From: Candidatus Rikenella faecigallinarum
GTDB lineage: Bacteria > Bacteroidota > Bacteroidia > Bacteroidales > Rikenellaceae
DNA: 41,210 nucleotides
Direction of reading: 5' to 3'
Assembly: GCA_019113395.1 (NCBI GenBank)
Contig: DXHL01000012.1
Span: 1-41,210, forward strand
The position numbers and the translations under genes were made by a program. The stretch's first letter is position 1, and the number at the start of each line of letters is the position of its first letter. Positions 8,162 through 26,506 of this stretch are shown in pieces. Under the pieces are notes generated by a model. It worked only from the letters and a program-made list of their open reading frames with translations, was not told the DNA's origin and ran no database searches.

Positions 8162-9832
8162 CTAAAACAGCCCGCTGATGTTCCCCTCTTCGTCAATATC
8201 GATAGCCTCGGCCGCAGGGGTCTCCGGCAGACCCGGCATACGCATAATCTCGCCCGTAATCGGAATCAGGAAACCTGCACCGGCCGCAATCTCAATGTCG
8301 CGCACCGTAATCACAAAATCTTTCGGCCGACCCAACAACGCTGGGTTGTCCGACAACGACTTCTGAGTCTTCGCCATACAGATGGCCAGCCCGTCCAACC
8401 CGAGGTCGGCAATCCGTTTCAGGGCGTTTTTGGCCTTCGGCATATAATCCACCGCCTCTGCCCCGTAAATACTCTTGGCAATGGTTTCGACCTTTTTCAC
8501 GACAGGTTCGTCGAGCGGATAGAGGGGTCGGAAATCCGAACAGCACTTCTGGGTGGCCTCCACCACCAGCTGTGCCAACTCTTCGGCACCGCTGCCCCCG
8601 CCGCCCCATACATCGGCCACGGCGCACGCCACACCCCGCATCGTACAGTAATCCTTCACGAAATGCAACTCCTCGTCGCTGTCCGACACAAAACGGTTGA
8701 TGGCCACCACGGGCGTCAGGTTGAACAACCCGATGTTTTCGATGTGTTTCTGCAGGTTCACAATCCCGCGCTCGAGCGCCTCCACATTCGGCGTCTTCAG
8801 GTCGGCCAACGGTTGTCCGCCGTGGTATTTCAGGGCGCGAATCGTCGCCACCAGCACCACCGCATTGGGCGAAAGACCCGCTGCACGGCACTTGATATCG
8901 AGGAACTTTTCAGCCCCGAGGTCGAACCCGAAGCCCGCTTCCGTCACCGTATAATCGGTCAGCGAAAGTGACATTTCGGTCGCCAACACCGTGTTCGTCC
9001 CCTGCGCAATATTGGCGAACGGCCCCCCGTGCACCAGTGCGGGCGTACCCTCGATGGTCTGCACCAGGTTGGGTTTGATGGCATCCTTCAGCAGTGCCGC
9101 CATCGCCCCTTCGGCATGAAGGTCACGCGCATAGATGGGGCGTTTGTCGTAGGTAAAGCCCACAAAAATATTCCCCAGGCGACGTTTCAGGTCGGCCATG
9201 CTCGTCGCCAGACACAGAATGGCCATCACCTCCGAGGCTGCCGTAATATCGAACCCCGTCTCACGCGGCACCCCCGAAGCCGTACCGCCCAGCCCTACGA
9301 CAATATTACGCAACGAGCGGTCGTTCATATCCATCACCCGTTTCCACGAAATGGTACGCGGGTCGAGCCCCAGCGAACGGTTCTTGCTCTGAATATTGTT
9401 GTCAATCAGTGCGGCCAGCAGGTTGTGCGCCTTTTCGACCGCCGAAAAGTCGCCCGTAAAGTGCAGGTTGATATCCTCCATCGGGAGCACCTGCGACATT
9501 CCACCGCCCGTAGCGCCCCCCTTCAGCCCGAAAACCGGCCCCAGCGACGGTTCGCGAAGCACCACGCACGAGCGTTTCCCGATGCGGTTCAGTGCCTGCG
9601 AAAGGCCTATCGAGACGGTTGTCTTCCCCTCGCCGGCCGGCGTTGGCGAAATGGCCGATACCAGAATGAGTTTTGCGTCACGCCGCTTCTCGCGGTCGAT
9701 ATAGGTCAGCGGTACTTTGGCCTTGTACTTGCCGTACAACTCCAGGTCGTCCGGATTGATTCCCAACTGTTTGGCCACCTCCGTGACCGGTCGCATCCGC
9801 ACCGAGCGGGCAATTTCAATGTCTGTTTTCAT
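8162..9832 (-). CDS. fhs: Formate--tetrahydrofolate ligase
   Basis: The 556-aa protein matches the full length of formyl-THF synthetase, which makes 10-formyl-THF from formate, THF and ATP. Seen are the P-loop-like SPTPAGEGKTT (residues 62-72), LREPSLGPVFGLKGGATGGG for ATP/folate contacts, and ALVHGGPFANIAQGTN and TEAGFGFDLGAEKF, all signatures of the family. It supplies one-carbon units for purines and serine-glycine exchange from fermentative formate. ATG at 9832 gives the normal N-terminus. It is divergent from the glycosyltransferase gene and has its own -7 box. Confidence 0.96.
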   Translation of the reverse strand: MKTDIEIARSVRMRPVTEVAKQLGINPDDLELYGKYKAKVPLTYIDREKRRDAKLILVSAISPTPAGEGKTTVSIGLSQALNRIGKRSCVVLREPSLGPVFGLKGGATGGGMSQVLPMEDINLHFTGDFSAVEKAHNLLAALIDNNIQSKNRSLGLDPRTISWKRVMDMNDRSLRNIVVGLGGTASGVPRETGFDITAASEVMAILCLATSMADLKRRLGNIFVGFTYDKRPIYARDLHAEGAMAALLKDAIKPNLVQTIEGTPALVHGGPFANIAQGTNTVLATEMSLSLTDYTVTEAGFGFDLGAEKFLDIKCRAAGLSPNAVVLVATIRALKYHGGQPLADLKTPNVEALERGIVNLQKHIENIGLFNLTPVVAINRFVSDSDEELHFVKDYCTMRGVACAVADVWGGGGSGAEELAQLVVEATQKCCSDFRPLYPLDEPVVKKVETIAKSIYGAEAVDYMPKAKNALKRIADLGLDGLAICMAKTQKSLSDNPALLGRPKDFVITVRDIEIAAGAGFLIPITGEIMRMPGLPETPAAEAIDIDEEGNISGLF

Positions 9833-9879
9833 AGCCGTTGTAGGGTTTGGAAATGACGGTTTCGTCGTGTTTCAGTTAC

Positions 9880-9887
9880 CAAATATA
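9880..9887 (-). promoter_or_regulatory. fhs promoter -7 box TATATTTG
   Basis: On the minus strand TATATTTG (9887 to 9880) matches TAnnTTTG and lies 48 bp upstream of the fhs start. No clear -33 TTG is seen at the standard distance. Confidence 0.6.
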
Positions 9888-9935
9888 CAACCTTTTTCGT
9901 ACATTAGTGGTTCCAATACCGAACCGCGCTGCGAC

Positions 9936-11081
9936 ATGAAAATTCGTATCCTGGGCCCCGCCCATCCCTACCGAGGCGGCATCGCCAAATTCGACGAAGT
10001 GCTGGCCGACGTCTTCGGACGGCAGGGACACGACGTGAAAATCATCAACTTCACGCTTCAATACCCCTCGTTCCTCTTTCCGGGCCGTACCCAATACACC
10101 CGCATGGCACCGCCCCAGGGTCTGACCATCGAACGGCGTATCAACTCGGTCAATCCGCTGAACTGGCCCTCGGTGGGACGCGCCGTGGCTCGCGAGGAAC
10201 CCGACCTGGTGATTCCCCGTTTCTGGATGCCTTTTATGGGGCCGTCGCTCGGAACCATCGCCCGCAGCATCAAACGGCACCGTCCCCAAACCAAAGTGAT
10301 TGCTCTGGCTGACAATATCGTCCCGCACGAACATCGACCCGGAGACCGTCCCCTGACAGCCTATTTCCTGCGGCAGACCGACGCCGTGGTCTATATGTCG
10401 AACGAAGTGGGAACAGACCTCGACACATTCCGCTATCGCGGTCTGCGAGCCATGTCGCCCCACCCTACCTATGACACCTACGGAGCCCCCGTCACCAAAG
10501 CCGAGGCCTGCCGAGAACTGAACCTCGACCCCACCCTCGACTACGTCCTCTTTTTCGGTTTTATCCGCGACTACAAGGGGCTGGACCTGTTGCTGCAGGC
10601 ATGGGCCCAACTGAAGGCCGCCGGGAAAACCGCGGGACGCAAGTTGTTGGTGGCCGGAGAATACTACGGCAACCAGGAGAAATACGACACCCTTATCCAG
10701 TCGCTTGACCTGACCCACGACATTGTGGTACACGACCGCTACATCGACGAAAATCAGGTGCGGTACTATTTCGGCGCCTCGGACCTGGTCGTACAACCCT
10801 ACAAAAGCGCTACGCAAAGCGGTGTCACACAGGTGGCCTACCACTTCGGCGTGCCGATGGTGGTAACCCACGTGGGTGGGCTTCCAGAGATTGTGCCGGA
10901 TGGGCGCGTGGGCTATGTGGTCGATGTCGAACCGCAGGCCATTGCGGATGCCATCGACCGCTTTTACGCCGAACAGCAGGCAGAACCGTTCCGCAAAAAC
11001 ATCGAGACCGAACGACAACGCTTTACCTGGGAGGCACTGACCGCGACCTTCCTCGACCTCTACCACCAACTCGAAAAATAA
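9936..11081 (+). CDS. Glycosyltransferase, GT4-like
   Basis: A 381-aa protein of GT-B fold. The N-terminus GPAHPYRGGIAKFDEVLADVF is the acceptor-side glycine-rich loop. The C-terminal half has FFGFIRDYKGLDLLLQAWA, then YKSATQSGVTQVAYHFGVPMVVTHVGGLPE, the nucleotide-sugar-binding E-x7-E-like region of GT4/GT1 enzymes. It transfers a sugar from an activated donor, probably to a cell-envelope glycan; donor and acceptor cannot be read from sequence. The ATG at 9936 was preferred to earlier in-frame starts, which would run back into fhs. It leads a co-directional run with the S37 peptidase gene 11 bp downstream. Confidence 0.88.
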   Translation: MKIRILGPAHPYRGGIAKFDEVLADVFGRQGHDVKIINFTLQYPSFLFPGRTQYTRMAPPQGLTIERRINSVNPLNWPSVGRAVAREEPDLVIPRFWMPFMGPSLGTIARSIKRHRPQTKVIALADNIVPHEHRPGDRPLTAYFLRQTDAVVYMSNEVGTDLDTFRYRGLRAMSPHPTYDTYGAPVTKAEACRELNLDPTLDYVLFFGFIRDYKGLDLLLQAWAQLKAAGKTAGRKLLVAGEYYGNQEKYDTLIQSLDLTHDIVVHDRYIDENQVRYYFGASDLVVQPYKSATQSGVTQVAYHFGVPMVVTHVGGLPEIVPDGRVGYVVDVEPQAIADAIDRFYAEQQAEPFRKNIETERQRFTWEALTATFLDLYHQLEK

Positions 11082-15784: not shown

Positions 15785-18631
15785 TTATTCTATAGGTATG
15801 TAACCCGCCTCAGTAATTTCTGCCTGTGTCAAAGTGCGCATCAAGCGAATCGGTGCACCAAGAGAAGTACTTGCAATCGAGGGTGGCAAGCTATAGAAGC
15901 GGATGTGTTGACTAGCTACCATAGTTGCATTTAACTGAGTTGCATAGTAAGCATTTGAAGTAGTCATTGGAAAATAACAGCCCACATAGGTTCCTTTTCC
16001 CGCATTTAAATCCCAATATTGAGAGATAAAAAACAGTCTTCCTTTCGACATAACACCGTGAACAGCTAAACCAATATAGTACGTAATATTTGCTTGGGCA
16101 GCATTAAAAGAATATCCCCATTTTGCTTTATCTGCCGTTTTATACCATGGAGAGAACTCCGCTGCATCATCTGCATTGGTTCCTGTACCCACATCGGTAA
16201 ACATCTCATCAAGAGCTTCAGTGATTGTTTTAGAAGAATTATAAGTCTCAGTACCTTTCCATTGGGTATATGTAATTTCTGAGTAAGCTTTTCCCGTAAT
16301 GTGCATTTCAGGCTGAAAATGATAATTGCCAGCCGTCACAAACTTCCCATCTTGAATACGCGGGTCGGCTCCTACATTGCGGTCTGCAACCAATATATAG
16401 TCCCTTTTCTGTGCATCCTGTATAATTACATCATTGATAGTACAAGAAGTCTTCACGGTCACGGTAACATTGATACTTTGCGTCTCTCCCTCACCATTCG
16501 GTACTGCCGTAAAGGTCAGCGTCCCGCTAAAGGTCGGGTCGCCCGGCCCCGTACGGAAGACATTAATCCATATCGACTCCCCGTTCTTCAGCCCCGTAAT
16601 ACTATTGGCCACTGCACTATTACTCCCCCACTTCGCCTCTGTCTTCACAGCCGCCGGGTCTGTCTTGGTCAGGAAGAGGTCGTAATCCTTGGCAAACGAC
16701 GATTCCACCTTCCAGGTATAATTATCCGGGTCGGCCAACTGCACCGTAAACTTGCGCTGCGCCGAAACCCCATTGGGTCGCACATTCGGTTCCGGGTCAA
16801 AACCCTCAACCACCAAACCCTCCTGGTCCTGAGGCTCCGACGGGTTTATCGACAACAGGTAATCACTCTTCGGCTGCGTAATCTGAATCATTACAGGATT
16901 CACCGAACCATCCACCTGACCATCCGAGCCCAAACGCTGAACCTTGAGGGTAAACGCACGCTCGCCGGCCGTAATGTTCGTCGGAACATCTACCTCCAAC
17001 ACCCCACGATTGGCTCCCTTCAACGTCCACGTAACCCCGGCCGTCGCCGCCGTATTGTTCGGGTCCGTCACCGACCAACCCGACTTCAAACTCCCGGTCT
17101 CCACCTGAAACCGTAACGTCGCCCCACTCCCGGCTACCGTCTGCTCCACAGTGCCCGTCTGACCATCGACCATCAACGTAGCCATCTCGTCCTTCGACGA
17201 AAACTGCATCACCGATACCGTGGCCGTCAAAGGCTTCTGCGGATCCACCGTACCCCCGCTCGCCTTCACTATCAACCGTGCATTGCGCGAAAAATCCGTC
17301 GCATTGTCCTCCAACGTCGTCACGCTGAACTGACGGTCATCCACACGAGCATACCGAAACTTCGAAGACTCCTCACCTACCAACGTCGGGTCCCACTCCA
17401 CTGACCACGTCAACCCATCCTTCACCACTACCTTCACGGCCTCCGACAAATCCTTGTAACCGTCAAACGTTACCATCGCTCGCGATATCGTCAGATAATT
17501 CCCCTTGTCGTCAGTCACCGTGTTGCCGTCGTCATCCGTCCACGAATCATCCACCGTGTAATCCAACATCGGGGCCTCTTCATCATGAGCCCCCTGCTCG
17601 TCATCCGAACCCGGACCCTTCACCGAATTGATAATCGCCAAATAACGATAATTACGACGCAATATCTGACTCCGACCATTCTCGGCCATGTTGAACCGAT
17701 AATAGGTCAACTTCTTCTTCGGATTCTCCGGAGTATTGTCCGTCCCGTCCTGATAATAACCACGTATCATCAAATAGGTCGTCTGTGAATCGTTCTGCAC
17801 TACCACCGGCACTATGTTCGGGAATGCATATACTCCACCGTTCAACTCCTGTACGTTCTGTGTCGGAGCTGATACCGATATCCAACTCTGGTCACTCAAC
17901 CCATCCACTATCCCGCCCTTCGGTGCATCGTTGTGAAAATAATAACCCGCACTCCGGTAATTACACAACTTAACCGCATCGATTATCAAATTCTGAGCCG
18001 CCAAATGACGTAAATCCAACCGACATACACTTCGCGAAAAATGAGCCGAACCCGTGAACTCTACCCTCCCGTCACTCTGCTCCGTGAACTGAAAAGCTAT
18101 CTCGTGACCGTCACCGTCCACAAACTGACCCCACATCGGCAAACTCCCTGAATGAGTGCTCCCCGATGAATGGTCCATGTTACGCTCCGCATAAACCTGC
18201 TCGTACATCTCATCATAACTCATCGTCGATGACTGCTCCAAATAAGCATCAAACGACGCAAATCCAGATGGCACATGGTCATGGGAATTCCCCAAAACCA
18301 ACGTCTTGTAGGGAGTGTTCGGCGTCAATACCGCCGGTATCGGAAACGTGAAACTACTCGTCCCGCTCGTCACATTCGCATGCTGATAGGTCACATAACT
18401 TCCCTCCTCGGTGTAAAAAAGAATGTGTACATCCACCAACGTCCGCTCGTGACCCAATACGGGAGTCGAACGCGTCTCCATCAAACCATCTATCGTGTAC
18501 CCCACACGAACCGTCCCCGGAGCCGGAACATCCATCAGCTCCGAACCCGCTCGACGCTCACATCCCCATACCGACAATACCGCCACCAACCCGAATATCA
18601 GGCTCCGTATCTTACGTGTCTTCGTCATCAT
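15785..18631 (-). CDS. Large fimbrillin-family lipoprotein with variable C-terminal domain (likely tip adhesin)
   Basis: A 948-aa exported lipoprotein. The N-terminus has a lipobox ending VWGC (Cys at about residue 24). Residues ~35-330 look like a fimbrillin domain (VDVHILFYTEEGSY ... RNYRYLAIINSV). Ig/BACON-like repeats follow, for example LTATVSVMQFSSKD and MIQITQPKSDYLLSINP. The last ~215 residues begin INDVIIQDAQKRDYILVADRNVGAD and end with VGCYFPM ... GAPIRLMR, a FISUMP-like pattern (compare DRNLGA, GCYWSSS and PVRCV in related domains). It is the last gene of the operon, as tip or accessory subunits often are. The final ~650 bp are clearly AT-richer than the rest, suggesting the domain was exchanged. 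Confidence 0.78.
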   Translation of the reverse strand: MMTKTRKIRSLIFGLVAVLSVWGCERRAGSELMDVPAPGTVRVGYTIDGLMETRSTPVLGHERTLVDVHILFYTEEGSYVTYQHANVTSGTSSFTFPIPAVLTPNTPYKTLVLGNSHDHVPSGFASFDAYLEQSSTMSYDEMYEQVYAERNMDHSSGSTHSGSLPMWGQFVDGDGHEIAFQFTEQSDGRVEFTGSAHFSRSVCRLDLRHLAAQNLIIDAVKLCNYRSAGYYFHNDAPKGGIVDGLSDQSWISVSAPTQNVQELNGGVYAFPNIVPVVVQNDSQTTYLMIRGYYQDGTDNTPENPKKKLTYYRFNMAENGRSQILRRNYRYLAIINSVKGPGSDDEQGAHDEEAPMLDYTVDDSWTDDDGNTVTDDKGNYLTISRAMVTFDGYKDLSEAVKVVVKDGLTWSVEWDPTLVGEESSKFRYARVDDRQFSVTTLEDNATDFSRNARLIVKASGGTVDPQKPLTATVSVMQFSSKDEMATLMVDGQTGTVEQTVAGSGATLRFQVETGSLKSGWSVTDPNNTAATAGVTWTLKGANRGVLEVDVPTNITAGERAFTLKVQRLGSDGQVDGSVNPVMIQITQPKSDYLLSINPSEPQDQEGLVVEGFDPEPNVRPNGVSAQRKFTVQLADPDNYTWKVESSFAKDYDLFLTKTDPAAVKTEAKWGSNSAVANSITGLKNGESIWINVFRTGPGDPTFSGTLTFTAVPNGEGETQSINVTVTVKTSCTINDVIIQDAQKRDYILVADRNVGADPRIQDGKFVTAGNYHFQPEMHITGKAYSEITYTQWKGTETYNSSKTITEALDEMFTDVGTGTNADDAAEFSPWYKTADKAKWGYSFNAAQANITYYIGLAVHGVMSKGRLFFISQYWDLNAGKGTYVGCYFPMTTSNAYYATQLNATMVASQHIRFYSLPPSIASTSLGAPIRLMRTLTQAEITEAGYIPIE

Positions 18632-18662: not shown

Positions 18663-20216
18663 TTAAAACTCGCCCGGAAACTCTCCGCCATCCTCCCACG
18701 GAATCTCCGAATAGGGATTCTGAACCAACGTCACTATCAACTCCAACCGAGCAATGTAAATGTGCAATACCTCCTCTCGAACCTCCTCGCCCTCAGGACA
18801 TGCCTGCAACGTGCGTATCACCAAATTACCACCCTGCTCCGTGGCATCCGGCGACGGATTGTCGGCAAGCTTCTTCACACTGAAATAGGTACCGGTCACC
18901 GTCTCCGCACTGCTTGCCTCGCTGCCACCTATCGACATCGTCCCCGACGAGGGAGCAATGTTGCTCAACAAACTCAACAACGCCTCCAAGCCGGCTCCAT
19001 CCGCAAACTCTATCCGCTTGCGATTGACAGATGCCCAGTTCGTCCCGTCAAAAACAATGTCCTGATTCTCGTCCTCCCACGGAATTATCGTGACATCTAT
19101 GTCGGCCGTCTGAGACTTATACGCATCCTCCGGGGTAGCCTCACCCGAACTCCGTACGGCCGTTATCGTCACATTGTAACTGTGATTGCGCAACACATCC
19201 ATCAGGCCACGAACACCATCACTGTCCGTCGTCGTGAAATCAATCCGATAGTAACTGGTCTTGCCGCCCTTATAGCTGCCGCCTACAACCAGTGCACAAC
19301 GGTTTTGATGATTCTTATCCCCAGGAACTGCCCCTGGCTCCAAATGCGTATCTGCTTCCGGCAGATATATCTCTGCCTCCGACCGATTGTCCGACACGCT
19401 GTACTTCCAGGGCGAGGCTATCGCTATCGAACCCGTACCCTCGGCTACGGACGGCTTGACCACAACCGTCGAAGAAACACTCCCAAAAGCATCCGTCGTC
19501 GGCATCAGCCAGCGACGCTCACTCGCCCGATACACATAGGCCTCGGTCAGCGTAAAATCGGTCGTTGCCGTATTGTAGAGCTGCACACGAGCCACATCCC
19601 GCAACAACGACACCGTCAAGGGTTGGGTCTGCGGTGTGGCCGGCACCAGCACCTCTGTCGTGCGTCCGTACATCGGAAATGCCTCTCCGTCGGACTGTAC
19701 GGGTGCAGAAACAGCCTCATAAAGAGCCTCCTGCAGTGCCGCATAATCCATCTTCCCAATCACACTGCGCAATCCGTCAATCGTAATCTCCGTTCCCTGG
19801 CCATTAAAATCCGTCGCCAGCGTACGACCCAACACATTCGCCAACACTACACACGAAAAGGTATCATTGGCATCATCGGCATCCACCACAAAACTAACCT
19901 GAAAACTGACTGCCGTACCGTCTCCCTCCGGGGTCAGACTGCGCCCCTGCGAAACAGCATACAATTTGGCCGTCGCTTGGGTCCCCTGGAAAAACAGCAC
20001 CACGGCATTATCCACACGCGATTCGTCGGTCGTAGCCTGAGAACGGGTCGCACCAAAAAATCCATTGGGCGTACGCAACCGCAACTCAACGGTAACCTCC
20101 TGTTCCGAATCGGCCGAAGGAAGCCCGTCGGACCACTTGTCGCGCACACACGAAAGGGGCAACAGCGCAAGTATCAACCACAAAAAGGGGATGAATAGTT
20201 TGATTGCTCTTTTCAT
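18663..20216 (-). CDS. Fimbrillin-family accessory lipoprotein
   Basis: A 517-aa lipoprotein with signal LLPLSC (Cys at about residue 23). The N-terminal part has the fimbrillin pattern VTVELRLRTPNGFFGATRSQ ... VDNAVVLFFQGTQ and a conserved LLRDVARVQLYN strand. A middle section includes YYRIDFTTTD and LRNHSYNVTITAV, typical of the end of Mfa/Fim fimbrillin domains. The tail resembles a BACON-like domain (VLHIYIARLELIVTLVQNP). Such proteins are usually incorporated at or near the fimbrial tip after lipoprotein cleavage by a gingipain-like protease. It lies 28 bp after the FimB/Mfa2-like gene and 31 bp before the large fimbrillin gene. Confidence 0.8.
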   Translation of the reverse strand: MKRAIKLFIPFLWLILALLPLSCVRDKWSDGLPSADSEQEVTVELRLRTPNGFFGATRSQATTDESRVDNAVVLFFQGTQATAKLYAVSQGRSLTPEGDGTAVSFQVSFVVDADDANDTFSCVVLANVLGRTLATDFNGQGTEITIDGLRSVIGKMDYAALQEALYEAVSAPVQSDGEAFPMYGRTTEVLVPATPQTQPLTVSLLRDVARVQLYNTATTDFTLTEAYVYRASERRWLMPTTDAFGSVSSTVVVKPSVAEGTGSIAIASPWKYSVSDNRSEAEIYLPEADTHLEPGAVPGDKNHQNRCALVVGGSYKGGKTSYYRIDFTTTDSDGVRGLMDVLRNHSYNVTITAVRSSGEATPEDAYKSQTADIDVTIIPWEDENQDIVFDGTNWASVNRKRIEFADGAGLEALLSLLSNIAPSSGTMSIGGSEASSAETVTGTYFSVKKLADNPSPDATEQGGNLVIRTLQACPEGEEVREEVLHIYIARLELIVTLVQNPYSEIPWEDGGEFPGEF

Positions 20217-20244: not shown

Positions 20245-21183
20245 TTAGCCCAGTCCACCATTCATGTCCACCACGTGCCAATCGTTCACATAAAGTTCCA
20301 CACGAACCGAACTGTCCGACGACGATGGTTTAACCTCCAGGCGTATGGTAAATTCGTCCTCCAGGTCGAGATTCGTACCGGGTTTTTGCAGGAGTAGTTC
20401 CGAGAGGCTCCCATCGAAGAGCGTCTGAGCGGTACCGTCGCTTTTGACCGGCGTGGACAACAGTTCGACCTTCAGCCACGAATCATCCTCAGGCCATAGC
20501 CCGAGCACCGTGTGGTCATACGACGCAACCCCATTGGTATAACCTGCCTCGGGCAGATAGGTGACCGGTTGCTGTGTGCGGATGGTATTGTCGAATGCGT
20601 AGTCGCCATTGGCGCTGCGGATGGAGCAGGCCACCTGCTCGCGTTGCGTTTCGGTCAAGCCGGTAATCTCTATCCGTACGTCATTGGAGTTTTTATGCAG
20701 GTCCATGACCACCTCGGGCAACAAATTCCCCGTCACTCGAACATCACGACATACCGCATGAAACAAATGTTCCTGCTGCTGAGATACCGTTTCACCATCC
20801 TGCTCACGGCGAATGGACATAAGTGCCTGCTCGAAAGACTGCATCGAGCTGAAACGATAGCGTTGCACTACGCCTCCCCAGGCCACTATGTCATACTCCC
20901 CGGGAGGAACCATCCATTCCAATCCGTTGTCAGGACTCAACATGTCAACGTCAGGGCTGAGTTGTGCAACCAACCGTCCGCTTGCCGCGTCATACAGGAA
21001 AAGGTCCAACTGGGTCACCTCGGCATCAAACAAGTCGGTTTGTTCGACATTATAGGTGTACGTAAACCGTAAAGGCAACGGATAGCGGCAGTCCGAACGG
21101 TCATCGCGAACGCATCCCACAAGAAGGATTGCCCCAGCCGTGAGGAGGAGCAATCCATTCAGGATGTTTCGTGCCGTTATCAT
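20245..21183 (-). CDS. FimB/Mfa2-family fimbrial anchor lipoprotein
   Basis: A 312-aa lipoprotein. After the signal comes LLVGCVRDDRSDCRYPLPLRFTYTYN, the highly typical start of FimB/Mfa2 proteins (Cys lipobox followed by R-D/S-D-C). Inside are VTQLDLFLYDAASGRLV and VPPGEYDIVAWGGV, also family hallmarks. It ends YVNDWHVVDMNGGLG. These proteins anchor fimbriae in the outer membrane and limit their length. The ATG at 21183 was chosen over an upstream GTG at 21192. It follows the major subunit gene by 24 bp. Confidence 0.92.
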   Translation of the reverse strand: MITARNILNGLLLLTAGAILLVGCVRDDRSDCRYPLPLRFTYTYNVEQTDLFDAEVTQLDLFLYDAASGRLVAQLSPDVDMLSPDNGLEWMVPPGEYDIVAWGGVVQRYRFSSMQSFEQALMSIRREQDGETVSQQQEHLFHAVCRDVRVTGNLLPEVVMDLHKNSNDVRIEITGLTETQREQVACSIRSANGDYAFDNTIRTQQPVTYLPEAGYTNGVASYDHTVLGLWPEDDSWLKVELLSTPVKSDGTAQTLFDGSLSELLLQKPGTNLDLEDEFTIRLEVKPSSSDSSVRVELYVNDWHVVDMNGGLG

Positions 21184-21207
21184 GACAAACACGTTTTTTT
21201 CAGAAAA

Positions 21208-22584
21208 TTAGCCCAGCGGCTCGTTCATATCCACATCGGTCCAGTCTTCCACCGTAATAGTCACTTTGAGCGAGGTTTCGGTTTCTACGGGGCGGTTATC
21301 ATCCGGGTCCACCAAATCGCCCGGGTTATTCCAACCGATGTTGTTGATTTCGGTAACGGTGACTTTGTAGAAGTTGTTACGCAATACGCTGTAGCGCTCC
21401 TTGGAGGTTGCCTTATTGATATCGCGCAGGTTCAGACGGTAGTAGCTGTACCCATTGGTATACTCCAGCACGGCGTATTTCGCTTTATCGGGGGCTGCAG
21501 AGAGGTCACCGCTTGCTAAAACAGCATCTGCCGTTGCTTTGTCTTTGTAGATACCATAGTACGATTCCAGGGTCTGATAATTTTGGTCCATCGCCTGGTC
21601 TGTCGAATACTTCACAATCGCATAGAAGGTACCCGTTAAGCCATCAAATGTACCGTCCTCGCTCGTCCACTTTGTCGGCGTAGCCTTGACACGCACCAAC
21701 ATACAGGTAGTGTTGTTCATCAGCGGAGTGGCGTGGACATTCTCAGCCGTATAGTGCGAATATTCAACTACAGTTTTTATCTCTGAACTATTATTCTGGT
21801 CAAAACCGTTTACACGTGCAGCAATCCATTTTGCATCATCATTGTATACATCATACCACTTCGTCACTTCACCGGCGGACTCTCTATCTCCCAGAGCCAC
21901 ATACATCTGCGTCTGCATCTGTGCCAACTGCGTGGAAGCATCCGTAAAATCTACGGCTACATTTTCCGGTTGGAAGTTTTCCGAGGTTTGCACATTGCTG
22001 AACAAAAGCTGGCTCTTGGCTGCGGCGCGCGTCACCGACAGAGAAACCACATTCGGGTCTTCCTGGTCTTTTTCCACCAATGAAGCAGACTTGGAGCCAA
22101 ACATCAGGAACTTCGAAGCCGTGGCAATCGGAACTGTAATATCATATGCGTCAGCCGCACCGACATTCACCGCTTCGTACGTCATCTGCTCGAATGCACT
22201 CAGAGACAACCCCGGGGTCAGCGGAGTTACCTTACTGCTATTGTTGGCAATCACATAAACCGTTTTCTGCCCCGTGGTCGTCTGAATCACGCCCGTCTCG
22301 TAACCGGAACCCGAGGTAACCGACACCGCCTGAGCTACCGTTTCCAAGACGCCGCTTTTGTCGAAAATCAAAATATCGACATCTGTAATCTCTTTCTCCC
22401 CTACCTGTGAAGCAGCACGTGTAGCCACCTTCGAACCGGGATTGCTCACAACCACCGAAATCGAAGCATAGGTCGGAATACCCTCCGGCACCTGCCCCTG
22501 CTGTCCGTAATTCGTCTCTTTGTTACATGCCGCCAAAAACGCGGTCGCCGCAGCCATTGTGACTGCAAAAAGTTTCAGTTTCAT
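21208..22584 (-). CDS. Major fimbrial subunit, Mfa1 family
   Basis: A 458-aa prefimbrillin lipoprotein. The signal ends AFLAAC (Cys at about residue 20). The body has ITDVDILIFDKSGVLETV, VYVIANNSS and LSVTRAAAKSQLLFSNV (the N-terminal fimbrillin domain with a possible protease site near TRAA). The C-terminal domain has YYRLNLRDINK ... YSVLRNNFYKVTVTEINNIGW, then VTITVEDWTDVDMNEPLG, the Mfa1-type C-terminal strand used for strand-exchange polymerisation. It probably forms the fimbrial shaft. The ATG at 22584 gives a standard lipoprotein signal; an upstream GTG at 22608 is less likely. It is the second gene of the operon. Confidence 0.9.
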   Translation of the reverse strand: MKLKLFAVTMAAATAFLAACNKETNYGQQGQVPEGIPTYASISVVVSNPGSKVATRAASQVGEKEITDVDILIFDKSGVLETVAQAVSVTSGSGYETGVIQTTTGQKTVYVIANNSSKVTPLTPGLSLSAFEQMTYEAVNVGAADAYDITVPIATASKFLMFGSKSASLVEKDQEDPNVVSLSVTRAAAKSQLLFSNVQTSENFQPENVAVDFTDASTQLAQMQTQMYVALGDRESAGEVTKWYDVYNDDAKWIAARVNGFDQNNSSEIKTVVEYSHYTAENVHATPLMNNTTCMLVRVKATPTKWTSEDGTFDGLTGTFYAIVKYSTDQAMDQNYQTLESYYGIYKDKATADAVLASGDLSAAPDKAKYAVLEYTNGYSYYRLNLRDINKATSKERYSVLRNNFYKVTVTEINNIGWNNPGDLVDPDDNRPVETETSLKVTITVEDWTDVDMNEPLG

Positions 22585-22619
22585 CTTGTCAAAGTTTTGG
22601 TTAGACACTAGGATTTGAT

Positions 22620-23912
22620 TTATTCTCTAATCGTGTAATCAATGCTGCACTCGATTCGACGCAGTTGCGGGAAAACCTCAACCATCAACCGCCGATACGG
22701 AACGCCTCCGGATAGCTCCATCAACATACGCTCACGCCCTTCATAAACCCCCACATTCCGAACGATATACTCGATATAGGTTCGTTCCGCCAGATTCGGA
22801 ACCTTGGACAAGGCCACCAACAAACCATCCCAATCCTCACCACGTCCCTCTACATGCAACAGTTCGCTCAACTGCGGATAACGCTGCATAAAGTAATCGG
22901 CAACCCCCTGCGCACGCTCATAAGAGAGTTTATTATTATAGGCGGCCGTTCCTTCAATGGAACAATACCCAATAATCCGAATGTCGTGAATGACTATCGT
23001 CGTATCGCGGCGCATCCGCTCGACAAATCGCGAGAGAGCGGCCAACTCGGCCTGGTTCTCGCTATTTTGTAGCGGCACCGAACTCCCCACACTATACTGG
23101 AGGTGCAATGTCAGTTTCTCGTTGCGCACGGCAGTAGGTTGAGAAACGGAACGCTCTATCGTATCCCGAACCACAATCGTATCCCGAATGTAGAGCGTAT
23201 CCCGCAACCCGCGCCGTACCGGACGAGAGATAAATCCAACCTCACCCCGTGCTATCCGACTCTGTTTACGCCGTTTGGCTCCGAAACGATAAATCAGGTT
23301 CAGGGCTATTTTCGTCGGACCGATATAATGTTTTACGCCGGACGACAACCGTTCGCCACAAACCACCGGACAAAAACGGTCATAGTGGGCATAGATGTAC
23401 CCAAACCCGATTTCCCCCTCCATACCCCACCGTTCCGAGAAATTCCACCGATAGCCGTAGGCCACACCGGCACCTACACCCCAACCCTCGTGCCGATAGC
23501 TGTTCGTCTCGGGAAAAGTCCGAAACGGCAGATACATCCGATTCAGATTATAGACTCCCCCCAAGGCATGAATACCAAAGAAATGACCCAGCTGGCGCTC
23601 TTTGGTCCAAATACGCAGCTCGGGTTGCACCATCCAATGTTTCCATTTGCGTCCGCCGGAGAAGGTCCACGGATTGTAGCTCCCCGAAATATCGAAACTC
23701 AGCCGCTTTCCCCAGCCATACTCCAACCCCAGCGCAATACTCGTTGTCGCATCGTAGAGCAGGTTGGTTTTCAGGTCAAACTCAGCAGCCGGAGCCTCTA
23801 CGGCAAGGCTGTCCGTCCTGGGTTTCGGCTTGTCCGCGGCCCAAATCGACGGGGACCACAACACCCCACACACTATCAATACACGGGTAAGATATCGTAC
23901 CATAGGCAGCAT
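22620..23912 (-). CDS. DUF3575 beta-barrel/OmpA-like protein, first gene of the fimbrial operon
   Basis: A 430-aa exported protein. The signal peptide (MVRYLTRVLIVCGVLWSPSIWA) is followed by FDLKTNLLYDATTSIALGLEYGWGKRLSFDISGSYNPW, the DUF3575 outer-membrane barrel pattern, to about residue 215. The C-terminal half resembles an OmpA-like peptidoglycan-binding domain: IRIIGYCSIEGTAAYNNKLSYERAQGVADYF. DUF3575-OmpA proteins commonly lead Bacteroidota fimbrial operons, but their exact role is not settled. ATG 23912 is used; ATG 23903 is equally possible. The gene starts only 32 bp from the left inversion site. In the orientation seen, no good promoter faces it: only TATCTGTG at about 23979-23986 (minus), one base off the -7 consensus and without a -33. 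Confidence 0.82.
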   Translation of the reverse strand: MLPMVRYLTRVLIVCGVLWSPSIWAADKPKPRTDSLAVEAPAAEFDLKTNLLYDATTSIALGLEYGWGKRLSFDISGSYNPWTFSGGRKWKHWMVQPELRIWTKERQLGHFFGIHALGGVYNLNRMYLPFRTFPETNSYRHEGWGVGAGVAYGYRWNFSERWGMEGEIGFGYIYAHYDRFCPVVCGERLSSGVKHYIGPTKIALNLIYRFGAKRRKQSRIARGEVGFISRPVRRGLRDTLYIRDTIVVRDTIERSVSQPTAVRNEKLTLHLQYSVGSSVPLQNSENQAELAALSRFVERMRRDTTIVIHDIRIIGYCSIEGTAAYNNKLSYERAQGVADYFMQRYPQLSELLHVEGRGEDWDGLLVALSKVPNLAERTYIEYIVRNVGVYEGRERMLMELSGGVPYRRLMVEVFPQLRRIECSIDYTIRE

Positions 23913-23943
23913 GTCTCTTGATTGCTATTGTCTCTGTCACTGT

Positions 23944-23964
23944 CCCTTTCATGTTACGAAAGGG
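23944..23964. repeat. Left inversion site (IRL) of the putative fimbrial switch
   Basis: The site consists of arm CCCTTTC (23944-23950), spacer ATGTTAC (23951-23957) and arm GAAAGGG (23958-23964). With three more complementary bases on each side (TGT/ACA) the local stem is 10 bp. The 21 bp are the exact reverse complement of 25065-25085. Inverted arms around a 7-bp asymmetric spacer are the standard shape of a tyrosine-recombinase crossover site. Confidence 0.8.
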
Positions 23965-24004
23965 ACATAACACCACAGATACGAACCTTAAAAACTGCCA
24001 CTTG

Positions 24005-24955
24005 ATGGAAACTCGACAGACCCTCCACTCCCCATTCGGGTTCCCCCATGCCGCCTCGCACGGCACGCCCAGAATAGAACTCTCCCATTTGGAAGAACAC
24101 ATTGCCTGTTCGCACTATTTGGGCCACCAGGAGGTGAAATTTCTGCATGTTCACCTGACACCCAATTCCCCGTATACCATCGGGAACAACGAGACCTGCA
24201 TGCTCTTGTTTCTGCTGTCCGGTTCATGCCGAATGGTATCATCCGAGCAAGAGAAAGTAGTAGAAATGGAGAGTCTGCAAATGACTTTTCTGACGGCCGG
24301 ACAACAGTCTACCATCATCAGCCGAACACCGAGCGAGTGCTTTATCCTGCGTTTTACGGAGTTTACCTTCTGCGAAATGCTGACCCTGCAAAACCTGACC
24401 CAACTCACTCCGGAAATGGGTACTGAAGGGAGCACCGTCCCCATTGCCCCGGCACTGCAAGCATTCCTGCAAAACATGCGTTTTTACATCGACAACCGCA
24501 TACACTGCACGCACCTGCAACAGATTAAACAGGATGAATGTTTTATTTTGCTGCGCATCTGTTACTCGAAACCAGTGTTGGCGCAACTCTTCGCTCCCCT
24601 CTTGTCCAACCACGATTTGAGCCTCCGCATGAAAATTCAACAGTATGCAGCACATGCACACACCCTCGGAGAGTTGGCATCGCGCTGTGCACTGACGGAA
24701 ATCACGCTCAAACGAAAGATTCAAAAATTCTTTGGTGTTTCGCCGTATCAATGGATGTTAAAACAACGCAATCGGCAAATTCTCTATGACCTGCGAAGCG
24801 GACATACCTTAAAGGAGACATGTTATACCTATAAGTTCTCCTCATTGGGTAACTTCACCGCCTACTGCAAACGACAATTCGGGTTTCCTCCCTCCAAAAT
24901 CATACAACTCACGCCTGAGGAATACACCAAACTCATCGAAAAAATCAGAAGGTGA
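24005..24955 (+). CDS. AraC-family transcriptional regulator, inside the putative invertible segment
   Basis: A 316-aa regulator. The N-terminal half (to about residue 200) looks like a cupin-type sensory region (NETCMLLFLLSGSCRMVSS ... MTFLTAGQQSTIIS). The C-terminal ~90 residues are a complete two-HTH AraC domain: HTLGELASRCALTEITLKRKIQKFFGVSPYQWML, then FSSLGNFTAYCKRQFGFPPSKI. Inducer is unknown. It is divergent from the fimbrial operon and most simply regulates it. The ATG at 24005 gives the expected N-terminus; upstream in-frame codons would run through the inversion site. No TAnnTTTG box is seen upstream of it in this orientation, so it may be silent here. Confidence 0.85.
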   Translation: METRQTLHSPFGFPHAASHGTPRIELSHLEEHIACSHYLGHQEVKFLHVHLTPNSPYTIGNNETCMLLFLLSGSCRMVSSEQEKVVEMESLQMTFLTAGQQSTIISRTPSECFILRFTEFTFCEMLTLQNLTQLTPEMGTEGSTVPIAPALQAFLQNMRFYIDNRIHCTHLQQIKQDECFILLRICYSKPVLAQLFAPLLSNHDLSLRMKIQQYAAHAHTLGELASRCALTEITLKRKIQKFFGVSPYQWMLKQRNRQILYDLRSGHTLKETCYTYKFSSLGNFTAYCKRQFGFPPSKIIQLTPEEYTKLIEKIRR

Positions 24956-24998
24956 ACTATTTTTAGAATTAATTGAGCTATTTTAATAAATCAGAGCG

Positions 24999-25029
24999 TT
25001 GTCCAAGCGGAACACGTGCGCTATCTTTG
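24999..25029 (+). promoter_or_regulatory. Inner promoter P1 of the switch (TTG-N20-TATCTTTG)
   Basis: TTG at 24999-25001 and TATCTTTG at 25022-25029 are 20 bp apart, a full match to the Bacteroidota -33/-7 pattern. It reads rightward into the hairpin at 25056-25094. After inversion it would read left into the fimbrial operon, with a leader of about 80 nt. Confidence 0.75.
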
Positions 25030-25055
25030 CATCGAAAAATAGCGACAAAAAATAA

Positions 25056-25094
25056 AAAAGGTTGCCCTTTCGTAACATGAAAGGGCAACCTTTT
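25056..25094. terminator. Bidirectional hairpin terminator built on the right inversion site
   Basis: Arms AAAAGGTTGCCCTTTC (25056-25071) and GAAAGGGCAACCTTTT (25079-25094) form a perfect 16-bp stem with a 7-nt loop. Rightward RNA ends in four U. Leftward RNA ends in CC followed by U6-A-U6, a strong intrinsic terminator. The outer bases of the stem are not shared with the left site, so inversion would reduce the stem to the 7-bp arms. Confidence 0.75.
25065..25085. repeat. Right inversion site (IRR) of the putative fimbrial switch
   Basis: Arm CCCTTTC (25065-25071), spacer GTAACAT (25072-25078) and arm GAAAGGG (25079-25085). It is the exact reverse complement of the left site at 23944-23964, so the spacers point in opposite directions. 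That geometry yields inversion, not deletion. It lies 218 bp upstream of the recombinase start codon. Confidence 0.8.
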
Positions 25095-25100
25095 GCAGGA

Positions 25101-25108
25101 CAAAGATA
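25101..25108 (-). promoter_or_regulatory. Outer promoter P2 facing the invertible segment (TATCTTTG)
   Basis: On the minus strand TATCTTTG (25108 to 25101) matches TAnnTTTG and is identical to the -7 box of P1. It lies just outside the right site and reads leftward into it. The only TTTG upstream is 26 bp away, longer than usual. In the present orientation it faces the 16-bp hairpin and the antisense strand of the AraC gene. After inversion it would read the AraC gene in sense with a leader of about 70 nt. Confidence 0.5.
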
Positions 25109-25261: not shown

Positions 25262-25269
25262 TATTTTTG
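25262..25269 (+). promoter_or_regulatory. Putative recombinase promoter, -7 box TATTTTTG
   Basis: TATTTTTG matches TAnnTTTG and lies 34 bp upstream of the recombinase ATG. It is outside the invertible segment, so the recombinase would be expressed in both orientations. No clear -33 is seen. Confidence 0.5.
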
Positions 25270-25303: not shown

Positions 25304-26506
25304 ATGGCAACCATTCAAGTGATTCTCAAACGAAAATCGACGGCTCACCTATTAGCCATTCAAGTCAGGCATCGGGGGAAGAGCAAACTTTTGATATCCA
25401 AACACCAGGTACCCCCGGCCGCATTTTCGGAACAACGCATGCGCGTCCAAACGCTCACGGGGAGTTTGAATCGCAACGCTGCCGCTCGCATCAATGACAC
25501 CCTCGAACGAACCTGCGCCCTGCTCCAAGAACGTATTACGCTTTTGGAAGCCTGCGGATTACCCTTTTCGGTCGATGACCTCTGTGACGGCATCCATTTT
25601 CAAGGAGAGACATCCCCCACGGACCTCTTTTCTTTTTTCCGACTCCAAATAGCCCTCAAAGCGGCCAAACACAAATACGCCTCCAGCCAACTATACACCG
25701 CGGCCATGCATGCACTCCAACAGTACACCGGAGCGGCCAGATACGCTTTCTCGTCGCTCACACGGGAGTCTATCACAGGCTATATCGAATATCTCCGCCT
25801 GCGCAACCTTGCCCCGGGCACCATTTCGAAGTATCTGGCCATACTCCACACAATCTGCCTGCGAGCCGCGTGCCATGGAACAAAAATCAATCGGGAACAA
25901 CTCTTCTCCGGATTGCATCCCATGGTCGGGCGAACAGCCAAACGTGCTGTGGACAAATCCGTTCTATCCCGCATATTTCATCTGGACCTGTCCGACAAAC
26001 CGACACTGAAATATGCCTCGGACCTCTTTTTGTTCAGTTTTTTTGCTCAGGGGATGTCCCTGGTAGACATATTGCACCTGCGACATACCAACATTCAGCA
26101 CGGACAAATTCGCTACACGCGGGCCAAATGCGGAACCCGCATCTGCCTGGGCATTACCCCCCAGATGCAACAAATCATCGAACGGTATCAAGAAAACGGC
26201 AGCGAAGACAACTACATTTTTCCCACCTTACGTGGAGTGGCAAAGGGGTCCAACAAAGAGTACAAGGTTTACCGCGCCACCAACCGGGCTTTACGGAAAA
26301 TTTCGAATCTGCTGCATCTGGAAGTGCCGCTCACCACCTATGTGGCACGGCACACCTGGGCCACCAATGCCAAAAAATCCCATATTCCCATACCCATTAT
26401 TCAAGAAGCATTGGGACACACCTCCATCCGAACGACAGAGATTTATCTACAACAATTCGAGACACAGATTATTGACCGCATTAACGAGCGCATTACCCGT
26501 TTATAG
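25304..26506 (+). CDS. Tyrosine recombinase (putative fimbrial-switch invertase)
   Basis: A 400-aa site-specific recombinase of the Bacteroidota phage_integrase/SAM-like group. The N-terminal arm and SAM-like core-binding domain span about 1-205. In the catalytic domain Lys275 lies in the beta-hairpin RAKCGTRI, Arg349-His350 in YVARHTWAT, His372 in LGHTSIRTTEIYL, and the nucleophile is Tyr381. In many Bacteroidota relatives the first box reads RGM-S/A-F-x-D; here it is AQGMSLVD with Gln249 in place of Arg, while the classical Arg I position holds Ser252. It lies 218 bp from the right inversion site and in no visible prophage or conjugative element. This context suggests a resident invertase acting on 23944-25085 rather than an element integrase. 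Confidence 0.85.
   Translation: MATIQVILKRKSTAHLLAIQVRHRGKSKLLISKHQVPPAAFSEQRMRVQTLTGSLNRNAAARINDTLERTCALLQERITLLEACGLPFSVDDLCDGIHFQGETSPTDLFSFFRLQIALKAAKHKYASSQLYTAAMHALQQYTGAARYAFSSLTRESITGYIEYLRLRNLAPGTISKYLAILHTICLRAACHGTKINREQLFSGLHPMVGRTAKRAVDKSVLSRIFHLDLSDKPTLKYASDLFLFSFFAQGMSLVDILHLRHTNIQHGQIRYTRAKCGTRICLGITPQMQQIIERYQENGSEDNYIFPTLRGVAKGSNKEYKVYRATNRALRKISNLLHLEVPLTTYVARHTWATNAKKSHIPIPIIQEALGHTSIRTTEIYLQQFETQIIDRINERITRL

Follow-up and report, generated by a model that had tools for sequence, protein, structure and literature searches.

A predicted invertible segment that would switch on an AraC-family regulator and a type V pilus operon together

When an AraC-family regulator gene is found between two inverted copies of a 21-bp site, with a pilus operon on one side and a tyrosine recombinase gene on the other, the question arises as to what an inversion of the intervening DNA would control: the operon, the regulator, or both. 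We addressed this question for a stretch of 41,210 nucleotides (the window), whose relevant features are collected in Table 1, and for related loci (designated L). The reading we favor, with a probability of roughly 0.7, is that the segment is an invertible switch that carries araC together with an outward promoter motif, is flipped by the neighboring recombinase, and activates regulator and pilus operon at the same time.

Table 1. Features of the window that bear on the proposed switch
Feature	Coordinates	Strand	Remarks
Operon gene 5: 948-aa protein	15785..18631	-	No Pfam or NCBIfam match
Operon gene 4: Fimbrillin_C protein, FimD-like	18663..20216	-	Tip assignment weak, under NCBIfam cut-off
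Operon gene 3: Mfa2 anchor	20245..21192	-
Operon gene 2: Mfa1-family fimbrillin	21208..22608	-
Operon gene 1: DUF3575 / OmpA outer membrane protein	22620..23912	-
Left recombination site	23944..23964		21 bp, inverted copy of right site
Predicted invertible segment, sites included	23944..25085		1,142 bp; inversion predicted
AraC-family regulator gene, within segment	24005..24955	+	HTH_18
P_out, outward promoter motif (TTG, 20 nt, TATCTTTG)	24999..25029	+	Kept in 14 of 16 repeat-flanked loci
Terminator-like hairpin at right site, assembled orientation	25056..25094	-	16-bp stem, then U-run
Right recombination site	25065..25085		21 bp
P_fix, -7 motif of putative fixed promoter outside segment, pointing in	25101..25108	-	Kept in 14 of 16 repeat-flanked loci
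-7 motif 34 nt before recombinase start	25262..25269	+
Tyrosine recombinase gene, likely invertase	25304..26506	+

With respect to the genes, the five members of the operon are separated by gaps of 11–31 nt and combine a fimbrillin, an Mfa2 anchor and further fimbrillin-type genes, which is the composition of a type V pilus operon of the Bacteroidota and bears out the five-gene Mfa/Fim-type operon of a preliminary description of this DNA. The regulator scores 51.4 bits against HTH_18 in its C-terminal part (cut-off 33.6), as befits the AraC family. The recombinase gene, which begins 218 bp outside the right site as had also been described, has the expected domain match and encodes the catalytic residues K275, R349, H372 and Y381 expected of a tyrosine recombinase beside an inverton. 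Its Arg I region is unlike that of XerC/D-type enzymes and reads QGM, residue 249 being a Q where most rows of the alignment contain the R of an RGM motif. The same QGM is present in the recombinases of L086 and L068, and L069 contains QGI. The recombinase of L086 (G206:C45, the locus of the same family nearest to that of the window) is 65% identical to the window's enzyme and is encoded in the same layout. The neighboring tyrosine recombinase is the likely agent that would flip the segment.

The two sites are complementary at 21 of 21 positions and form the sole exact inverted pair of at least 15 nt at a distance of 50–3000 nt in the whole window, with about 2 × 10^-5 inverted pairs of 21 nt expected by chance for independent bases. 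Neither a third exact copy of the site nor an alternative junction was found in the window's own draft genome (2.07 Mb, 98.65% complete), where the search returned just these two sites. Both the identical, opposed sites and the asymmetric 7-nt spacer (ATGTTAC versus GTAACAT) had been recognized in the preliminary description; its 7-bp arms proved too short, as the palindromes extend to 10 bp at the left site and 16 bp at the right. The segment is accordingly enclosed, in the manner of an inverton, by inverted repeats with palindromic arms and an asymmetric spacer. Across the loci of the family, the arms measure 5–16 bp and the spacers mostly 5–7 nt; our site-calling script performed poorly at the right end of L075 and L091 and called no right site in L137. 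The sites vary in sequence from locus to locus, yet match inside each locus, and the segments of repeat-flanked loci range from 1,142 to 1,398 bp.

The extent to which this arrangement recurs was assessed with a profile built from nine AraC sequences and run on 268 genomes of the family, from which 80 regions were fetched among the matches listed. Inverted repeats with a score of at least 15 enclosed 16 of 79 AraC open reading frames (the window's included) and 4 of 473 control frames of 700–1300 nt taken from the same loci; at a score of at least 18, the counts were 14 of 79 and 2 of 473. In 37 further loci (two of them larger cuts of contigs fetched earlier), no repeat pair with a score of at least 14 was found. 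The order pilus operon, site, araC with P_out, site was observed, among the matches listed, in 14 loci from 12 genomes and six genera of one family, a sample whose members are not independent, as L063 and L064 are 94% identical in DNA sequence and L066 and L067 are 80% identical. Closely similar layouts are thus found in 11 related genomes besides the window's. A second profile, from 13 repeat-flanked AraCs, was run on the same 268 genomes and returned the 14 P_out-bearing loci as its best matches, each with at least 340 bits, a rank that is partly by construction because 13 of the 14 had built it; the next match, at 324 bits, lacks such repeats, and no unfetched match ranks near the 14. A tyrosine recombinase gene lies beyond one site in 14 of the 16 repeat-flanked loci and in 12 of the 14 with P_out, with only a fragment in L067 and a contig end where the gene would be expected in L075. 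The presence of a regulator inside the segment, which had been called unusual, is no one-off in this family.

Several of these loci merit separate description. L075 (G000:C8:139000-149653) holds, at 9407-10611, a second araC segment of the window's own genome that is bounded by different inverted repeats and adjoins a DUF3575 gene and a fimbrillin-like gene, with the contig ending 43 nt past the right site. L066 and L067 are two related switches with similar sites in one genome (G019); as L067 retains only a fragment of a recombinase, the enzyme of L066 might serve both. In L070, L071, L180 and L181, a recombinase gene and araC are adjacent in tandem and no repeats were detected, and in L146, from a Tannerellaceae MAG, the contig ends just past araC. 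A search beyond the family covered 17 loci, of which just one, L192 from another family of the order, has a repeat pair (score 20); its araC is divergent from a pilus-type gene 3.2 kb away. The araC segments of L192 (4719-6069), L068 and L069 lie between repeats with a related core, CACTT...AAGTG, and have no pilus genes directly beside them; they perhaps represent a second group of araC switches. Between the left site and the araC start, L065, L075 and L085 contain direct repeats, CTGAAAC-N4-CTGAAAC (11-nt period), which are possible AraC binding sites, and L065 and L085 have a TGTTTCAG motif further upstream of them. An AraC operator common to all loci was discarded as an idea, since these repeats, found in the three loci named, are absent from the window.

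Next to the sites, two promoter motifs recur. We searched for TAnnTTTG, which PMC4747536 gives as the -7 motif of the Bacteroidota, on both strands within at most 100 nt of either side of both sites, with all loci turned so that araC reads rightwards. Motifs inside the right end and pointing out (the P_out class) occur in 14 of 16 loci, and motifs outside the right end and pointing in (the P_fix class) also in 14 of 16, compared to 0.61 and 0.91 expected from letter shuffles; the remaining six classes of position and strand yield 0, 1, 1, 1, 1 and 3 of 16 (0.55–1.21 expected). P_out is absent from L068 and L069, and P_fix is absent from L069 and from L075, where the contig stops 43 nt beyond the site. 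In the window, P_out consists of TTG at 24999-25001, 20 nt, and TATCTTTG at 25022-25029, pointing right, so that the previously claimed full -33/-7 promoter directed away from the operon is confirmed as a motif; P_fix is the second TAnnTTTG, on the minus strand immediately outside the right site. Together with the motif that precedes the recombinase gene, these are the only three occurrences between 21.7 and 28.5 kb of the window. At the level of motifs, the segment consequently contains a putative internal promoter that would face the operon after inversion, as in an inverton, and 14 of 16 loci have a putative fixed promoter outside that points into the region, as in the cwpV switch of Clostridioides difficile.

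The promoter motifs also speak to the transcription of araC itself. To the left of araC, within 100 nt, the -7 motif stands at background (1 of 16 loci outside the site and 1 of 16 inside), which indicates that no recognizable promoter reads araC in the assembled order. Because of the second conserved motif, which points inward from outside the segment, transcription of araC should likewise depend on the orientation. The earlier claim that no good promoter faces the operon holds insofar as no recognized motif is found nearby; it overlooked P_fix, which points operon-ward from about 1.2 kb off, behind the hairpin. A TTG at -33 spacing (18–23 nt) accompanies 4 of 14 P_out motifs, the window's among them, and is missing from the other 10; it accompanies 3 of 14 P_fix motifs, of which the window's is not one. 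Such scarcity would fit activator-dependent promoters, although on its own it does not count as evidence. In 15 loci that lack repeats, the -7 motif was found after araC in five (1.61 expected) and before it in five (1.62 expected), a pattern too weak for use as evidence.

A further element at the right site is a predicted terminator-like hairpin, which sits directly downstream of P_fix and is placed so as to stop transcription from it. Four terminator-like sites are listed between 23800 and 25400, where 1.5 would be expected, and this hairpin is the longest of them. Its predicted folding energy is -25.2 kcal/mol (z -6.85), and L086 has a stem at the same place (-21.4, z -7.24) whose outer part differs in sequence. 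Inverting the segment computationally weakens the minus-strand hairpin from -25.2 to -12.7 in the window, from -21.4 to -10.8 in L086 and from -21.1 to -11.5 in L131. Over 16 loci, this change showed no consistent trend. A terminator formed just in the OFF order, the cwpV-type behavior, is accordingly predicted for the window and L086 and is inconsistent in other loci; we dropped the idea that the site acts as a terminator as a general rule, as a hairpin with a U-run is clear in those two alone.

Which of the two orders is OFF can be judged from relatives. A pilus-type gene lies within 4 kb of araC in 37 of 131 AraC loci examined. In the absence of repeats, araC is upstream of and co-directional with that gene in 21 of 22 loci; in their presence, it is divergent in 15 of 15 (L192 included). 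Fisher's test on 21:0 against 0:15, with the one other locus left out, gives about 2 × 10^-10. The real weight of this value is lower, since the 21 include several orthologs from a single genus and the 15 include several close relatives. On a tree of 54 AraC sequences (a fragment among the 21 was omitted, and 17 rows fall outside any group), seven changes of the repeat state are required, of which supported branches force five. Repeats and divergent order are thus linked across several gains or losses. Inversion of the segment would re-establish the araC order of relatives without repeats, and this comparison supports the view, already considered probable in the preliminary description, that the window as assembled is OFF: araC points at the operon in nearly all of those relatives, and P_out faces away from it here.

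Direct signs of inversion were sought in the same material. The preliminary description had suggested comparing related assemblies for a flipped segment; no copy in the ON order occurs among the repeat-flanked family loci examined, with 14 of 14 in the OFF order. An OFF bias of this kind is compatible, by analogy, with a working inverton such as B. fragilis IVp-I, which according to the available part of PMC4747536 was ON in 1.03% of an inoculum. In L068 and L069, whose genomes belong to the same genus, the flanks are collinear and araC is reversed in one relative to the other, which lends weak support to inversion; the two AraC proteins share 45% identity and the two recombinases 51%, both loci lack P_out, and their annotated neighbors are helicase and radical-SAM genes rather than pili. 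Contig ends within 250 nt of the araC 3' end, considered as a sign of mixed orientation, occur in 6 of 79 loci (0.89 expected), of which L075 alone has repeats, and were set aside.

Taken together, these features suggest the following mechanism. In the assembled order, taken to be OFF, P_out points away from the operon and toward the recombinase, and P_fix points inward at the 3' end of araC, where it would meet the terminator-like hairpin of the right site. The two motifs face each other across that site, with transcription from P_fix either stopped or reading araC antisense. A flip would exchange the halves of both sites and split the hairpin, after which P_fix would read araC in the sense direction and P_out would face the pilus operon, such that a single recombination event would switch on regulator and pili. 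AraC, which we infer to be an activator of P_out, would then act on that promoter and render the ON state self-reinforcing. Weighing against this mechanism are the OFF order of all 14 loci, the divergence of L068 from L069, the confinement of a clear hairpin with a U-run to two loci, the missing -33 TTG of the window's P_fix, the Q in the recombinase's RGM motif and the non-independence of the loci.

Other readings of the locus have to be weighed against this one. If P_out alone mattered, araC would simply be carried along, with the same transcription in either orientation, and P_fix would be irrelevant to the switch. Promoter invertons with local recombinases are indeed the common kind in Bacteroidales, as the available portions of PMC12632263 and PMC4747536 indicate, and the window's P_out does possess a -33 TTG. 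We nonetheless consider this reading unlikely, as P_fix is as conserved as P_out and the -7 motif to the left of araC does not rise above background. The earlier interpretation of the locus as an invertible promoter switch remains sound in its inversion-ready segment, outward motif, local recombinase and OFF state, and is incomplete in that P_fix, the hairpin and the control of araC were missed.

It is also conceivable that the switch serves the recombinase, with P_out in the assembled order driving or repressing the recombinase gene and pilus control being secondary. P_out does point to the recombinase side, and the gene is on the same strand as P_out in the window, L086 and L135. This explanation appears improbable given that a full recombinase gene is present in 14 loci, in 10 of which it is convergent with P_out or, in L069, upstream in tandem; in L068, one more locus, it is convergent with no P_out present, and the window's recombinase gene has a -7 motif of its own. 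Finally, the repeats could be relics or mere hairpins beside a divergent order that is fixed. An inactive switch of this type would account for the uniform order of all 14 loci and for the fact that the extended palindromes of several sites exist just in the assembled order. It is hard to reconcile with sites that differ between loci and match within each, with an intact recombinase gene retained alongside, with asymmetric spacers, and with a strict link of repeats to divergent order across several gains or losses, and we regard it as very improbable.

The preferred reading, a joint switch of regulator and operon, can be extended beyond the window. The loci may constitute a recurrent class of self-latching inversion switch in which one flip joins a fixed promoter to the regulator and a mobile promoter to the pilus operon and dismantles a site-formed terminator, such that the regulator would be present only in ON cells and would hold the operon or the switch ON; the class would have been gained or lost several times among loci with araC upstream of the operon. 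On this broader proposal, we are evenly divided. The invertons of gut Bacteroidales in the literature, so far as the available portions of it go, mostly turn a promoter; what is predicted here is a transcription factor moved from silent to expressed simultaneously with its likely target. If true, the ON state of the pili would be sharp and heritable, and one flip could act on other loci via AraC. The prediction also offers a way to test how these commensals bet on adhesion and a simple rule for finding more such loci, namely an araC gene between inverted repeats with head-to-head -7 motifs across one site.

With regard to known systems, fimS of the Escherichia coli type 1 fimbriae shares with the present locus the combination of tyrosine recombinases and a fimbrial operon promoter, which there inverts within a 314-bp segment; unlike here, no regulator gene is known to lie inside, and the fimbriae are of the unrelated chaperone-usher type. 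The Hin segment of Salmonella inverts an outward promoter along with a gene, as proposed here, but that gene encodes the serine invertase rather than a regulator of the target. Weinacht, as cited in PMC12632263, reportedly described in 2004 that B. fragilis tyrosine recombinases invert DNA upstream of surface protein genes, and a phase-variable locus of this kind is said to have been tied to pili later; in their tyrosine recombinases and inverted DNA upstream of surface genes, these pilus and outer-surface loci resemble ours. In the open literature, including the available portions of PMC11892184, PMC12632263, PMC4747536, PMC13114119 and PMC2784873 and with most subscription papers and preprints beyond its scope, we found no account of an inverton that contains an araC gene, although the available part of PMC10939037 includes regulatory genes among its invertible regions. 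The parts are of known kinds, their combination was not found in the open literature, and it may have been reported elsewhere. Two further systems resemble the locus. In the B. fragilis promoter invertons, to the extent that PMC4747536 is available, a surface-structure operon likewise has an inverted-repeat promoter with a tyrosine recombinase next to it, and the -7 motif TAnnTTTG and a strong OFF bias are shared as well; unlike in our proposal, it is the promoter that turns, and neither 'AraC' nor 'transcriptional regulator' appears in the available text. The cwpV switch, as described in the available part of PMC2784873, likewise has a promoter outside the inverted region and an intrinsic terminator proposed to form in OFF only; unlike the segment described here, which contains araC and P_out, its inversion region holds no promoter or open reading frame. 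By analogy with both, we propose that the operon side would work like a classical promoter inverton and the araC side like cwpV.
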